Below are positions 2,076 to 34,814 of a stretch of DNA of 40,203 nt, piece by piece (position 1 is the stretch's first letter; every line of letters starts with the position of its first letter). Under the pieces are notes generated by a model, which saw only the letters and a list, made by a program, of their open reading frames with translations, did not search any database and was not told the origin of the DNA. The translations under genes and the position numbers were made by a program. This DNA is from a virus, in the IMG/VR virus record IMGVR_UViG_3300014933_000174, positions 1 through 40,203 of that record. One strand, given 5' to 3'.

Positions 2076-4256
2076 CTAATCTACTCGCACATCAGTTAAC
2101 TTTCCTTTTTTAGCTGCCATAGCATCAAACATATTGTCAACATCGTATTGTTGGGTTTCTTTAGCTAATTTAGCAGTTTTAGCTTGAACTTCTTGTACAG
2201 TAGCTTGGTTAAGAGCTGCTTTACTTTGGTGTACAAGCTCTTCAGCAGGAGGAGGTTGCTTGGATTTAGCTTGCGCTAGTTTTACTGCTTCATCCATTGT
2301 TATCAAATAAGCATCTACATGGCGAACACCCAAGACTCTTAAAGTATCTTCATAAGGTCTTCTGGCTTTTGCAAACATTTCAGGCATTTCAGGGTTTAAT
2401 TGCATGACCACTTGTGCAAACTGCTGTTGAGCTTGAGTGATTAGTTGTTGTCTGGTTAGCCTATTTTCGTCAGACATAAACCCTAGACCTAAATCAATGT
2501 TGATCATTTTTCTGTCAATGAATTGATAGTTTGCCATTGCTTGTGCATCCAAGAAAGGGCCACCTTTTTCTGAGCAAACGTGAGCTAATTGTTGGATAGA
2601 GTAATCGTCAGCATACTGAATCATTGTGTGCCATACAAGGTGAATAACATCTTGTAGTGCTATTGCACAATTTTTAATCATCTCATCTTGGATAAGTTGA
2701 TTTGGCCCCATAGCAGTTTGGAGCTTAAATCCTGAATTACCATCCTTCATAACCTCTGGATTTAGAGAATCAGCAGGATTGGTCATTCCTATCATTGCCA
2801 TATTGTCTTCTTTAAGCGAAGCCATAGCAGAATCAACGTATGCCAAATTGCCTTGCAAAGGTGCAAACTCAAAAACGTGCTTAGTAGGATCAAACTTACG
2901 ATCAAGTACAAACATAGCACTAACGCCTCGCTGAATCTCTTCAGCATCCACAAACTCAGGATTAACCCCAATCCTAGGAGTAGAGGCTTGCATTGCAAAG
3001 CTAAGTTGAGCACGTCTAATCGATGTTGCATATTCTTGAATCGGTACTAACCGCTCTCCAAGTGAATAGCCAAAGAAGTTGCCAGTAATAGGCTTAGGGC
3101 ACATATTTGCCAAAGGAATAAAGTCAACTTCCTTAACGTACAAAATATAAGAGCCTGAATAGCAAACCTCAACAATCTCTTCTTCACCGTCTCCATCAAC
3201 ATCTTTTCTAAGCCAAGCAGTTGTCAACATAACAACCCTTGCATATCGATCAGCACCTTGTGAGGCAATAACACCCTGTCCAGGAACAGGCGTAGAGTCT
3301 CTTGCGTGTAGAGCTAAATCATTCTCCAATGCTCCTGCTTGATAAGCTCCCGCAGGGCCATAAGCAGCATGATCAGCAAACTGTTCCATGTCAATAAAAG
3401 GATATTGAACTTTTGCCTCATGGATAGTCATTGGCTCGTAAAACCCTACAAAATCCTGATACATGATTTGTGGGATTGTTGGGTTACATACGAAGTAATG
3501 TTGAGCAATATGCTTGATTCGAATATTGGTTTGTGTACCAGTACATTTGTACTTTGCACGATAAATAGTGTTGTTGGATATTGCTTCTTCCAACTCTGCG
3601 CCTGGGGCTGATTCTTGCTCTTCCTCTTGCTCATCCCCTGGTTGCATAGATTCTTGCATAGCTTGTTGTAAATTTACATCAACCTTACGCATTTGTTGTC
3701 TAAGGGTTTTCAAACCACTTTCAGCAGCCTGTAATTCAAAAGCCTTTAACTGATCTTTTGTCCCAGTTACTTCTTTGTATTGGGTAATAGTGTCACGAAC
3801 AGGCATCACCATCACAATACCGTTCTTGTGCATCAACGCATCTTGAGCCCAGTCACGAATAACTGCATACGCATTGTTTTTGTTATTAATGAAATACTTA
3901 ACCATGTCTGTTGCTTGTTCAGCACCGTCTTGGTCAGATTCATCAAATCTTTCAAACTCAAAGTTAACCTTTCCATCAGGCATTAAGCACTTTGTAATTA
4001 CCGCAGTAGCGTAATCGATACCTGGAGTTACTACTGGATGGATGTAATCTAGCCCTCGGATTGGCTCTGTAGATTCAGATACTGGAATATTTAAATAATG
4101 GTAATCCGTAAAACGGTTGTAGGTATTCTTAGCTTGAGTCAAGCGAAGGTAGTCAACCATTTTCATATATGCTTCGTGACATACTTTTTCTGCAATACCA
4201 CGATTGCCAGAAGGAGATGCCAGATTTTCAACTACCAAATTTTGCTTGAATAACAT
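2076..4256 (-). CDS. Portal protein
   Basis: The dodecameric ring at the capsid vertex through which DNA passes. At 726 residues it has the large size of P22-type podovirus portals. It lies directly between the large terminase and the scaffold. The middle holds a long alpha/beta region with YARVVMLTTAWLRKDVDGDG, typical of the wing or clip region of such portals. The C-terminal part (residues about 640-726) is Gln/Ala/Lys-rich and helical, fitting a barrel helix. The start is preceded by AAAGGTTAACT, a leader shared with other late genes. Assigned by size, order and overall look. Confidence 0.85.
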   Translation of the reverse strand: MLFKQNLVVENLASPSGNRGIAEKVCHEAYMKMVDYLRLTQAKNTYNRFTDYHYLNIPVSESTEPIRGLDYIHPVVTPGIDYATAVITKCLMPDGKVNFEFERFDESDQDGAEQATDMVKYFINNKNNAYAVIRDWAQDALMHKNGIVMVMPVRDTITQYKEVTGTKDQLKAFELQAAESGLKTLRQQMRKVDVNLQQAMQESMQPGDEQEEEQESAPGAELEEAISNNTIYRAKYKCTGTQTNIRIKHIAQHYFVCNPTIPQIMYQDFVGFYEPMTIHEAKVQYPFIDMEQFADHAAYGPAGAYQAGALENDLALHARDSTPVPGQGVIASQGADRYARVVMLTTAWLRKDVDGDGEEEIVEVCYSGSYILYVKEVDFIPLANMCPKPITGNFFGYSLGERLVPIQEYATSIRRAQLSFAMQASTPRIGVNPEFVDAEEIQRGVSAMFVLDRKFDPTKHVFEFAPLQGNLAYVDSAMASLKEDNMAMIGMTNPADSLNPEVMKDGNSGFKLQTAMGPNQLIQDEMIKNCAIALQDVIHLVWHTMIQYADDYSIQQLAHVCSEKGGPFLDAQAMANYQFIDRKMINIDLGLGFMSDENRLTRQQLITQAQQQFAQVVMQLNPEMPEMFAKARRPYEDTLRVLGVRHVDAYLITMDEAVKLAQAKSKQPPPAEELVHQSKAALNQATVQEVQAKTAKLAKETQQYDVDNMFDAMAAKKGKLTDVRVD

Positions 4257-15118: not shown

Positions 15119-15293
15119 TTCTACTCCTTAATATTTCCATTTTGTTCTTAACTCTTTCACCCATACCTTTAAATATTTCTAATCTTTGTTTGATCTTTAC
15201 TTCATTTCTGATGTATTCAATCCATTCAGGTTTAAGTGCCAACTCTGCATATTTCCATTCCAAATCTTCAATTTGTTTATCAAGTTCATCCAT
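15105..15293 (-). CDS. 62-residue coiled-coil-like protein
   Basis: Starts at an ATG immediately after the stop of the overprinted ORF (TAA ATG). The sequence MDELDKQIEDLEWKYAELAL then KQRLEIFKGMGERVKNKMEI is highly charged and helical. Its end overlaps the next gene by 14 bp. Not recognised. Confidence 0.55.
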   Translation of the reverse strand: MDELDKQIEDLEWKYAELALKPEWIEYIRNEVKIKQRLEIFKGMGERVKNKMEILRSRNDRR

Positions 15294-16344
15294 TTAAGAT
15301 TCGCCATGCGGTAGCCGCGCACAAGGGCACTTGCCCATTTCCAATGGCTTTAAGTCTGTCCACTCTAGAGGCCATCCCATTAACCACTCTACCCACGTTG
15401 GGTTCAACTGCCCAGAAGTCGGGTGAGCGACCATAGAAAGGTTCAATTGTTTGCTCTTTTCTGCTCTTCGTTGAATTGATGGATTGCTCATGTTCCCTTT
15501 GTCCTTGTGGTCGTATGCTTGAGGTGTCGGAAACTTCAATTTTTCCGCATCCCTCACCGCTTGATTGATTGAGTATTGGGCTTGATGTCCAGATTTCCTC
15601 TTGGGTGTCCACAATTCCTGAGTCCCCCTTGCCCCACAATTTGCATCTGGGGTTGGCCAAAGTCTCTGCCCTACTATCGTCTCCAAGTTGGGATTGCGCT
15701 TGTCGTTCCAGGCTGATTCGGAAGTTATCGTTGAAGCCATTGCCGAGCAACTCCTTGGTGTTGGCCATTTCTCTTGTTTCTTTTTCAATGCTTTTCTGCT
15801 GTTGCTCCCACCATCTAATCCTGTTGTATTGGGTGTGTGAAAGCTGTCCACGCCATTTGGCGACAATCCAAATTCTGTCCCTCTGATGGTTTGCTCCAAC
15901 GTCCGCTGCTCCCAACACTCCCCATCTCGCATTAAACCCCATTGAGGCCAAGTCTCCGAGAACTCGTCCAAGCCCCCTAGAAGTGAGCATTGGTGAGTTT
16001 TCCACGAAGACGAATCTGGGTCGTACTTCGTGAATGATCCTCGCCATTTCTCCCCACATTCCTGATCGTTTTCCATCAATTCCTGCACCTTTTCCTGCTG
16101 CTGAGATGTCTTGACATGGAAATCCGCCAGATACGACATCAACAATTCCTTCCCACGGTCTTCCGTCAAAGGTTTGAACGTCATCCCAAATCGGGAAAGG
16201 CGGGAGAAGTCCGTCATTTTGTCGGGCGCACAATACACTTGCTGGATAGGGTTCCCATTCAACGGCGCAGACTGTTCGCCATCCGAGAAGTTTTCCCCCC
16301 AAAATTCCTCCCCCAGCACCTGCGAATAAAGCCAACTCATTCAT
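15286..16344 (-). CDS. C5 cytosine DNA methyltransferase
   Basis: 352 residues. Transfers a methyl group from SAM to C5 of cytosine. Motif I FAGAGGG is at 7-13, motif IV GGFPCQ at 73-78 with catalytic Cys 77, motif VI FVFVEN at 111-116, motif VIII QRDRIW at 154-159, and motif X GNGQVPL near 336. The region between VIII and IX (about 165-310) would be the target-recognition domain and holds LSHT, MANT, LANP and VSDT repeats. The ATG overlaps the upstream stop and has AAAAGGAGAACT in front. No partner restriction enzyme is seen, so it probably protects phage DNA or marks it. Confidence 0.92.
   Translation of the reverse strand: MNELALFAGAGGGILGGKLLGWRTVCAVEWEPYPASVLCARQNDGLLPPFPIWDDVQTFDGRPWEGIVDVVSGGFPCQDISAAGKGAGIDGKRSGMWGEMARIIHEVRPRFVFVENSPMLTSRGLGRVLGDLASMGFNARWGVLGAADVGANHQRDRIWIVAKWRGQLSHTQYNRIRWWEQQQKSIEKETREMANTKELLGNGFNDNFRISLERQAQSQLGDDSRAETLANPRCKLWGKGDSGIVDTQEEIWTSSPILNQSSGEGCGKIEVSDTSSIRPQGQREHEQSINSTKSRKEQTIEPFYGRSPDFWAVEPNVGRVVNGMASRVDRLKAIGNGQVPLCAATAWRILNG
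15294..16340 (-). CDS. ORF overprinting the methyltransferase (WPTP / LNPTWVEWLMGWP type)
   Basis: A 348-codon ORF in the +1 frame of the methyltransferase gene, covering almost all of it. Its content is not random: KWRGSFTKYDPDSSSWKTHQ, then GGLDEFSETWPQWGLMRDGE, WPTP repeats, and LNPTWVEWLMGWPLEWTDLK match in order a protein type I know next to or over phage dcm genes. Its ATG lies 4 nt after the methyltransferase ATG behind the same SD; later starts at 16217 or 16187 lack an SD. No catalytic motif is known. It may act with the methyltransferase. Coding is strongly suggested but not proven. Confidence 0.7.
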   Translation of the reverse strand: MSWLYSQVLGEEFWGENFSDGEQSAPLNGNPIQQVYCAPDKMTDFSRLSRFGMTFKPLTEDRGKELLMSYLADFHVKTSQQQEKVQELMENDQECGEKWRGSFTKYDPDSSSWKTHQCSLLGGLDEFSETWPQWGLMRDGECWEQRTLEQTIRGTEFGLSPNGVDSFHTPNTTGLDGGSNSRKALKKKQEKWPTPRSCSAMASTITSESAWNDKRNPNLETIVGQRLWPTPDANCGARGTQELWTPKRKSGHQAQYSINQAVRDAEKLKFPTPQAYDHKDKGNMSNPSIQRRAEKSKQLNLSMVAHPTSGQLNPTWVEWLMGWPLEWTDLKPLEMGKCPCARLPHGES

Positions 16345-16673
16345 AGTTCTCCTTTTACTCTTAAAGCTTCTTGCGCAAACTTTAAAGATATTGGTTTAAC
16401 AGATAAACCTCCTTTCCAATCTCTAATAATCTTTTTAGCCCATTCTTTATGATCAATAGGTTTATAAACCTTGGAAGTAAACATTGGAGAACACATTAAT
16501 TTAAATTGTCTTGCAGAAGGCAACTCACCCTTAATGTTCTGTATACCCCATTTGATATATCCAATCTCTACATTATTCAACTCAGATCTCCACTCTTCTT
16601 TATTTAATGCTTCAACAGAAAAACCCTTCTCTTCAAATCTCTTAAATAACTTATCTATAACTCTTAATTCCAT
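16341..16673 (-). CDS. Lambda P-like replication protein (helicase loader candidate)
   Basis: 110 residues. The segment VEIGYIKWGIQNIKGELPSA with RQFKLMC recalls the WPPSxxEFxxxC-type region of P-like proteins, and HKEWAKKIIRDWKGG looks like their C-terminal part. P-type proteins bring the host DnaB helicase to the phage origin. At 110 residues it is shorter than lambda P (233), so this could be only the conserved domain. The ATG has AAGGAGTTTAAGTT in front. It is the first gene after the structured leader. The assignment is tentative. Confidence 0.4.
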   Translation of the reverse strand: MELRVIDKLFKRFEEKGFSVEALNKEEWRSELNNVEIGYIKWGIQNIKGELPSARQFKLMCSPMFTSKVYKPIDHKEWAKKIIRDWKGGLSVKPISLKFAQEALRVKGEL

Positions 16674-20628: not shown

Positions 20629-21246
20629 ATGAACACATATCAGAAATTAAACATAGCGAGAAACAAGTTTCATCAACAGAAACTAAAGAAGTCAGGGTTA
20701 AATAAGTTTGCAGGATACTCATACTTTGAACTATCAGACTTTCTTATCCCTGCTTTAGATATCTTTGGTGATGTAGGGTTAAATGCAACCATTTCGTTTA
20801 CTAAAGACTATGCTGAAATGAGAATAGTTAACGTAGACAACCCTGATGAGTTTCCTATTGTTATTACATCTCCAATGGGTAGTGCTGCACTTAAGGGATG
20901 CCACGAAGTTCAGAATATTGGTGCCGTCGAAACGTACCAAACGAGGTATCTTTTTGTTCAGGCATTGTGTGTTGTTGAGCATGACATACTGGATGCCACA
21001 ACTGGACAAACCCCAGTCAAGAGACAAACCCCAACGGATAGCCCTATAACGCTCGATGAGGACACCGAAAACAACCTGGTTGACATTGCAATAGGTATTG
21101 AAGATATTGCCTCTCAAGGCGATATAGTGGGTGCATATAAAGAGTATTTAAAAGTGACAGATGACGAAGAGAAAACATTCCTTTGGAAAAAGTTAACTAG
21201 TACAACAAGGTCAGCAATTAAGAAACATGGAGAATCTTTAAAATGA
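20629..21246 (+). CDS. erf: ERF-family single-strand annealing protein
   Basis: 205 residues. ERF-family proteins anneal complementary single strands in recombination and in genome circularisation. The fold signature is seen in YSYFELSDFLIPALDIFGDV, FPIVITSPMGSAALKG and then QNIGAVETYQTRYLFVQALC with DILDA. Residues about 130-205 form a more variable acidic tail with helices. The next gene encodes an SSB-like protein, the usual partner, coupled by ATGA. Active-site residues are not defined for this family. Confidence 0.85.
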   Translation: MNTYQKLNIARNKFHQQKLKKSGLNKFAGYSYFELSDFLIPALDIFGDVGLNATISFTKDYAEMRIVNVDNPDEFPIVITSPMGSAALKGCHEVQNIGAVETYQTRYLFVQALCVVEHDILDATTGQTPVKRQTPTDSPITLDEDTENNLVDIAIGIEDIASQGDIVGAYKEYLKVTDDEEKTFLWKKLTSTTRSAIKKHGESLK

Positions 21247-33620: not shown

Positions 33621-34814
33621 TTATCCTTTAAGAGCCGTTACTTGGGTTTGTAGGGTTGTTACTTGGGATTGTAGGGTTGTAATCATAGCTTGTTGTTCTT
33701 GGATTGCTTTGAGCAAAATAAAAGGCAAAACAGATGTTTTTACTTCTTTGCGTGTATCACCATTTTTATCGGGCTGGCTATCTTGAACTAAATTTGGAAA
33801 AACCTGTTCAAGTTCTTGAGCAATCCAGCCCAATTCTTTTGGAGTCCCGTCGTCATCTGAAATCCAGTTGTATTTAACAACACGCAATTTCATGACATCG
33901 TCAATGTATCCGTTTCTGGTAGTTTCAATATTTTTCTTTAAACGCTGGTCAGACACGGTTCCGTAAGTTCCGTTGGAATAAACATAGAAGTTAATACCGC
34001 TTGAACCAGAACAAGTTATAGACTTGTATGTTGTGTTGTTTGCATTTGCGTAACTATAAACGCCATCGCCAGTATAGTTATTAACAAAATACCCAGAATA
34101 AGCAATAGTAGCTGTTGTACTTGAAACAAATTTACCAGATGCTGTTGTAGTCCCCACCAGCAAGTTACCGCTGGAGTCGATACGGGCACGTTCTGCAATA
34201 GTGCCAGCAGAACCTGTAGAAAATACTAAGTTACCTGTTTTACCTCCAGCATAGCTAGTAATTAAACCGCTAATCTGAGCATATAGATTATCAGAAGTAT
34301 AAGGTGCACCATATGAACCTTTAAAGGTAATAGAGTTACCAATATTATCTGTACCGTTGTTGTTAACTAATGTAATGCCTGATTGATTGCTACTTGTTGG
34401 AGAATAAACACTTAATTTATCATAAGAAGTAGTTGTTCCAACTAATAAATTCCCACTAGCATCAAGCGTCATTGATTGGGAGCCGGAAACCTTAAATGCG
34501 TGAATTGACGCATCGTAGTTCTGCTGCAAATAAGCAGCGCCTGTCCTGTTGTAGCTAATCAAGTTACCTTGAGAGCCAGAATAGAACATCTCAATACCAG
34601 CGCCAGAAGCAGGTGCTGAGTAACCTTGTGAACGCACAACACCGCTTGCGTCTAACTTTGCACTAGGAGTAACACCCACGCCAACATTCTGACTTGTATC
34701 TAAAGTTAAAGCAGTAGTACCACCATTGGTCTGTAGTTGCAAAACACCTGAAGTATCTGCTGAGTATGAAAGAGCCGTAGTTGTCGTAGTCCCTGCACTT
34801 ATCGTTGAAGCCAT
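33621..34814 (-). CDS. Tail fibre with C-terminal S74 self-cleaving chaperone
   Basis: 397 residues. The N-terminus (MASTISAGTTTTTALSYSAD) is shared with the next fibre gene. The middle is built of repeats like ARIDSSGNLLVGTTT. The C-terminal 110 residues are the S74 domain: VSDQRLKKNIETTRNGYIDD has the Ser-Lys dyad, KELGWIAQELEQVFPNLVQD the core, then FILLKAIQEQQAMITTLQSQ forms the coiled stalk that is released after autocleavage. A trimeric host-binding fibre. Confidence 0.85.
   Translation of the reverse strand: MASTISAGTTTTTALSYSADTSGVLQLQTNGGTTALTLDTSQNVGVGVTPSAKLDASGVVRSQGYSAPASGAGIEMFYSGSQGNLISYNRTGAAYLQQNYDASIHAFKVSGSQSMTLDASGNLLVGTTTSYDKLSVYSPTSSNQSGITLVNNNGTDNIGNSITFKGSYGAPYTSDNLYAQISGLITSYAGGKTGNLVFSTGSAGTIAERARIDSSGNLLVGTTTASGKFVSSTTATIAYSGYFVNNYTGDGVYSYANANNTTYKSITCSGSSGINFYVYSNGTYGTVSDQRLKKNIETTRNGYIDDVMKLRVVKYNWISDDDGTPKELGWIAQELEQVFPNLVQDSQPDKNGDTRKEVKTSVLPFILLKAIQEQQAMITTLQSQVTTLQTQVTALKG

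Follow-up and report, generated by a model that had tools for sequence, protein, structure and literature searches.

The stretch of DNA analysed here (the window) is a virus record of 40,203 bases, and matches to a portal protein (2076-4256, minus strand), an Erf-like annealing protein (20629-21246, plus strand) and a tail fibre (33621-34814, minus strand) mark it as tailed-phage DNA. Its minus strand carries two overlapping open reading frames, as the initial annotation had claimed: the alpha ORF, which encodes a C5 cytosine methyltransferase (MTase), and in the +1 frame the beta ORF (ORF2), in which the motifs quoted at that time were all found as written. The two start codons are interlocked, and a GGAG just upstream could be the ribosome-binding site of both genes. 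The features of the locus are the following.

15286..16344, minus strand: alpha ORF (C5 cytosine methyltransferase), 352 aa, ATG start; motifs I–VIII and X, without motif IX
15294..16340, minus strand: beta ORF (ORF2), 348 aa, ATG start, +1 frame; hairpin region, PTP cassettes, motif IX
16338..16344, minus strand: interlocked starts ATG A ATG (ATGAATGAG); alpha ATG at 16344-16342, beta ATG at 16340-16338, 4 nt after the alpha ATG
16349..16352, minus strand: Shine-Dalgarno-like GGAG, read from the sequence, 4 nt upstream of the alpha ATG and 8 nt upstream of the beta ATG
15862..16344, minus strand: alpha catalytic half with motifs I–VIII, overprinted by the beta N-terminal half; substitution pattern of the alpha-frame type
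15906..16037, minus strand: conserved part of beta, SFTKYDPDSSSWKT...SETWPQWGLMRDGECWE; a low-confidence model shows strands
15660..15767, minus strand: beta PTP cassette 1 (WPTPRSCSAM...IVGQRL), family 2
15534..15659, minus strand: beta PTP cassette 2 (WPTPDANCGARG...DAEKLK), family 3
15408..15533, minus strand: beta PTP cassette 3 (FPTPQAYDHKDK...PTSGQ), family 1
15351..15407, minus strand: beta motif IX-like segment LNPTWVEWLMGWPLEWTDL near the ORF2 end, from hhalign to one-frame MTases
15295..15357, minus strand: alpha motif X, RLKAIGNGQVPLCAATAWRIL, from hhalign; both frames constrained in this region
15379..15861, minus strand: alpha-frame shadow of the beta variable region, an open frame under little constraint that links motifs VIII and X

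Alpha matches PF00145 (E=7.6e-33) and phrog_363 (E=1.4e-66), and it has the motifs I–VIII of a PF00145 C5-MTase, with PCQ and ENV/ENS. ORF2 matches phrog_1008 (E=1.6e-30), which is labelled 'DNA methyltransferase'. Searches of Pfam and NCBIfam with ORF2 gave no match, and its profile produced only chance-level matches among PDB sequences. The AF2 model of beta alone was poor (pLDDT 56, pTM 0.27) and had no structural match, a PDB fold search with it being meaningless.

The initial annotation had argued from three stops in 64 codons that an ORF2 of this length would very rarely arise by chance. This reasoning was too simple, since it leaves aside codon usage and the encoded protein, but its conclusion holds. 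In 50,000 synonymous-codon shuffles of this gene, the +1 frame had a mean of 6.1 stops over the tested stretch and was free of them in a fraction of 1.4e-4. The decisive evidence is conservation. The loci were fetched by the catalytic half alone, so that relatives were not picked by ORF2 itself, which gave 80 viral loci (78 parsed) and 50 bacterial ones. All parsed viral loci (78/78) retain the ORF2 ATG and an open +1 frame. In 112 full-length relatives, stops are rare in the +1 frame, with a mean of 0.11 per gene compared with 4.9 in synonymous shuffles and none at all in 103 of the genes, these counts coming, like the others given here, from related sequences which are not independent trials, with host breadth as the safeguard. 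The +2 frame of the same relatives has 16.2 stops against 13.9 in the shuffles. Among 48 genes with clear landmarks, no +1 stop was found where 53, 78, 64 and 50 were expected in the N-terminal, catalytic, variable and IX–X regions, respectively, and the canonical MTases of the same genomes contain 8–20 +1 stops, close to their own shuffles. The bacterial loci span Proteobacteria, Chloroflexota, Planctomycetes, Verrucomicrobia and others, and their +1 stops lie essentially only upstream of the MTase start or close to the MTase end. Some of these 50 loci carry less weight, being incomplete or interrupted in the MTase frame; the full-length MTase genes among them match the viral pattern. The arrangement appears on these data to be kept across very distant phages and bacteria.

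The codons themselves point in the same direction. The second MTase codon, if it encodes Asn, is AAT in 100/100 relatives, even though most Asn codons in the rest of these genes are AAC (745 of 1250), and what is kept is thus the ORF2 ATG. Similarly, 32 of the 47 columns that are invariant within the first 80 residues of alpha show a biased choice of codons (p<1e-6). A BLOSUM-based test of beta changes at alpha-synonymous sites was weak, with an N-terminal difference of 0.135 (standard error 0.071) and nil in the catalytic part, so the claim for the N-terminal part is built on the avoidance of stops, on the AAT start and on the bias in codon choice. Taken over the whole gene, the comparisons indicate that ORF2 is conserved and under selection.

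Several records deviate from the intact form. A premature alpha stop with intact beta occurs in five loci (L053, L034, L310, L359 and L364), and in another (L067) beta is short and alpha intact; these may be sequencing errors or real inactivations. At L058:2970-4380, an insert with HNH-endonuclease-like sequence (CERCGGIQTLHRHHLDNNPLNN) interrupts the two overlapping genes in their motif IX/X part. A plasmid search found only 6 records. Four of 5426 complete E. coli genomes have a relative annotated as DNA cytosine methyltransferase (e.g. NZ_CP090448.1:1254490-1255205).

Mismatch rates were determined by alpha codon position in 23 disjoint pairs, and 347 overlapping pairs agree with them. At alpha positions 1, 2 and 3, the rates were.069,.028 and.206 in the first 80 codons and.120,.069 and.212 in the rest of the catalytic part. 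Position 3 is thus the fastest, as expected for an MTase frame, and this was so upstream of the variable region in 23/23 pairs. In the variable region the rates were.328,.144 and.121, and the fastest in 17/17 disjoint pairs was alpha position 1, where the ORF2 codons have their third base. The DNA there consequently evolves as an ORF2 gene, with the MTase frame as a mere open passenger. This passenger frame has no stops in the variable region against 286 expected, which partly results from selecting full-length genes. In the IX/X region (.113,.047 and.090) both frames are slow. The rates indicate that selection acts on the MTase frame upstream, on the ORF2 frame in the variable region and on both at the IX/X end. 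The second frame, then, has homologues, stays open in relatives and is under frame-specific constraint. Together with the retained ORF2 ATG, the stop-free +1 frame and the switch in position-specific rates, this strongly supports the earlier proposal that both proteins are made from one stretch of DNA.

The conserved motifs of C5-MTases are divided between the two frames. The HMM alignment of the alpha family with canonical MTases ends after motif VIII and leaves out motif IX. In genomes that contain both types, the PF00145 match of most split-type members breaks off at about position 160–196 of 324, whereas that of most canonical ones continues to about 322. The C-terminal end of alpha was aligned by hhalign (prob 93.7) with RLKAIGNGQVP, the motif X of one-frame relatives. 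The terminal ORF2 segment LNPTWVEWLMGWP was aligned with motif IX through these relatives: the beta LNP segment matches one-frame MTases (hhalign prob 97.4, E=1.2e-11), and the one-frame LNP segment falls on RLTPQECSRLMGF, the canonical motif IX, in a full-length hhalign alignment (prob 99.8). The direct match of beta to the canonical MTase profile is weak (E about 0.1–0.2). The one-frame profile matches solved MTases only over motifs I–VIII, and the motif IX link was for this reason made with hhalign. PF00145 MTases have IX and X in one chain; at this locus X lies on alpha and the IX-like segment on beta.

The part of ORF2 that separates the hairpin-like region from motif IX holds units starting with W/F/L-PTP, with a median length of 39 residues. 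The 147 PTP units from 80 proteins form 41 families which recur in varied order and number, as in the arrays [2,3,1] of the window, [2,1] of L015, [3,1] of L030, [2,3,0] of L044 and [2,0,1] of L020. The catalytic halves of 886 pairs are at least 82% identical in DNA; in 722 of these pairs the identity of the variable region falls below 40%, and the motif IX segment is nearly unchanged in the pairs listed. The cassettes behave like exchangeable target-recognition domains and would set the target of the enzyme.

Relatives with all the parts in one frame were found in actinophages. Their MTases hold PTP units, the LNP segment and motif X in cis in the catalytic frame, as in mycobacteriophages, where for example WillSterrel gp71 has LNPAFPEWMMGWPTGWV followed by motif X. 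The model of a one-frame MTase was confident over motifs I–VIII and the LNP–X part, with a disordered stretch in between, and it matches M.HhaI. The +1 sequence resembling the beta segment SFTKYDPDSSSWKT...SETWPQWGLMRDGECWE is present even in these one-frame relatives; their loci keep a shorter +1 ORF with hairpin and PTP, which in some of them (e.g. L162 and L163) ends just upstream of the LNP segment. In actinophages L145-L174 (e.g. L167), the first PTP units are in the +1 ORF and the rest in the catalytic frame, followed by IX and X. At one locus (L241), the catalytic frame contains motif IX and a different frame motif X, and the tails look as if they had been swapped through an indel in the variable region. 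These variants, both the one-frame enzymes with a residual +1 ORF and L241, show the plasticity of the arrangement. About 14 contigs (L264-L277, e.g. L265:1180-2680 and L271) carry a different type of phage C5-MTase, in which the catalytic frame ends after motif VIII and the later parts (SSKACEGILRRANRRGKVLPKALEDAL, then canonical motifs IX and X) are in two other frames. This type may represent a second form of overprinted or split MTase.

We consider it probable that the locus encodes a split C5-MTase whose alpha and beta chains come from the same DNA and assemble into one enzyme. Alpha, in frame 0, would provide the AdoMet-binding and catalytic core (I–VIII) and motif X. Beta, starting 4 nt downstream in the +1 frame and using the same ribosome-binding site, would provide motif IX, located in the small DNA-binding domain of other C5-MTases, and target recognition through the PTP cassettes. 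Both proteins would be produced together from the interlocked starts and would form a two-subunit MTase that methylates the phage DNA, presumably against host restriction. A swap of cassettes would then alter the target and leave the catalytic core untouched. The initial annotation had named a partner, an inhibitor and a target-site switch as possible functions of the second protein. The partner role is favoured because ORF2 has the motif IX and the predicted target-recognition region which are absent from the MTase frame.

Some of the same observations could be explained without a second subunit. The conservation of the DNA of an MTase gene makes its shifted translations similar as well, and the ORF2 motif SWKT, read from the sequence, is the shifted FVEN of the MTase, so beta might be an untranslated by-product of MTase composition and conservation. 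The shuffles, the AAT start, the codon bias and above all the beta-type substitutions in the variable region contradict this, and canonical MTases show nothing comparable, which makes a by-product extremely unlikely. A programmed frameshift was also considered, by which the ribosome, having read the alpha catalytic half, would move into the +1 frame and produce a single fused chain that includes the target-recognition part and motif IX. Both frames are indeed open across the entire gene and the one-frame relatives have the same order of parts in cis. We rejected this explanation as very unlikely: the beta ATG, kept in every parsed viral relative, and a +1 frame which is stop-free from the first codons are both needless for a shift near motif VIII, and the fused chain would be without motif X, because this motif is in frame 0.

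Beta may also regulate or inhibit the MTase as a separate protein, or act on host enzymes, and merely resemble motif IX. The long N-terminal half of beta without a known homologue would fit such a role, as would the +1 ORF retained by some one-frame MTases despite their motif IX in frame 0. However, motif IX is absent from the alignment of the split alpha family with canonical MTases, and the beta cassettes and LNP segment resemble parts which one-frame MTases have in cis. We therefore regard a separate regulator as unlikely and prefer the two-chain enzyme. As to its generality, we see about an even chance that such loci represent a very widespread class of phage and prophage two-chain cytosine MTases encoded in two overlapping frames, whose second frame is a mix-and-match set of target-recognition cassettes, which are re-targeted as enzymes by recombination, and in which out-of-frame indels move cassettes or motif IX between the chains and even give rise to one-chain enzymes.

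The records examined annotate one product per locus; if the two-chain reading is correct, they omit or mislabel one of the two halves of a common phage enzyme. MTases cloned from the annotated ORF alone may then seem inactive, and the target of the phage enzyme would have to be read from the hidden frame. The locus is also an unusually clear case of natural overprinting, in which one stretch of DNA switches its coding frame and then serves both, and it offers a modular system for studying how phages change methylation targets in the escape from restriction.

We found no description of the phage overlap in the open-access literature; it may have been described earlier elsewhere. PHROG 1008 (the beta match) and PHROG 363 (the alpha match) are both labelled 'DNA methyltransferase', with no mention of the overlap. 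What appears new is the breadth of the arrangement, the beta start 4 nt after that of alpha, the frame-specific map of selection and the cassettes.

The closest parallel is M.EcoHK31I (YGGCCR), a two-polypeptide C5-MTase. Its small subunit, said to have 176 aa, is reportedly (work of Lee et al. 1995) read in another frame within the gene of the large one, and the small chain at our locus likewise lies in another frame inside the gene of the large chain. Unlike that subunit, beta is nearly as long as alpha and starts 4 nt after it, and the arrangement is spread over phages and many bacterial phyla. In M.EcoHK31I, motif IX is found in the small subunit, and motifs I–VIII and X in the large one (PMC3404938). 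This is analogous to alpha, with I–VIII and X and without IX, and to beta, whose motif IX is seen via one-frame relatives, its direct match to the canonical profile being weak. The target-recognition domain (TRD) of M.EcoHK31I was predicted in the large subunit (PMC3404938), whereas the substitution patterns here would place target recognition in beta, the former assignment being itself a prediction. M.AquI (CYCGRG) is also a C5-MTase in two chains, alpha and beta, but it is split inside the variable region and its small subunit holds IX and X together (PMC3404938); here IX and X are on different chains and overlap in the DNA.

The cassettes have a counterpart in one-frame enzymes. The actinophage MTases such as WillSterrel gp71 have similar PTP units, the LNP motif IX and motif X, but all in the catalytic frame. 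The multispecific MTases of Bacillus phages are single chains whose TRDs, of about 40 aa each, are in frame with the catalytic domain. Those of SPR, phi3T, rho11 and H2 have several tandem TRDs in one enzyme (PMC8936443). The units described here are likewise tandem, have a median of 39 aa and occur in recombined order, which suggests that they are TRDs too, but in contrast to the Bacillus phage domains they lie in the overlapping frame.
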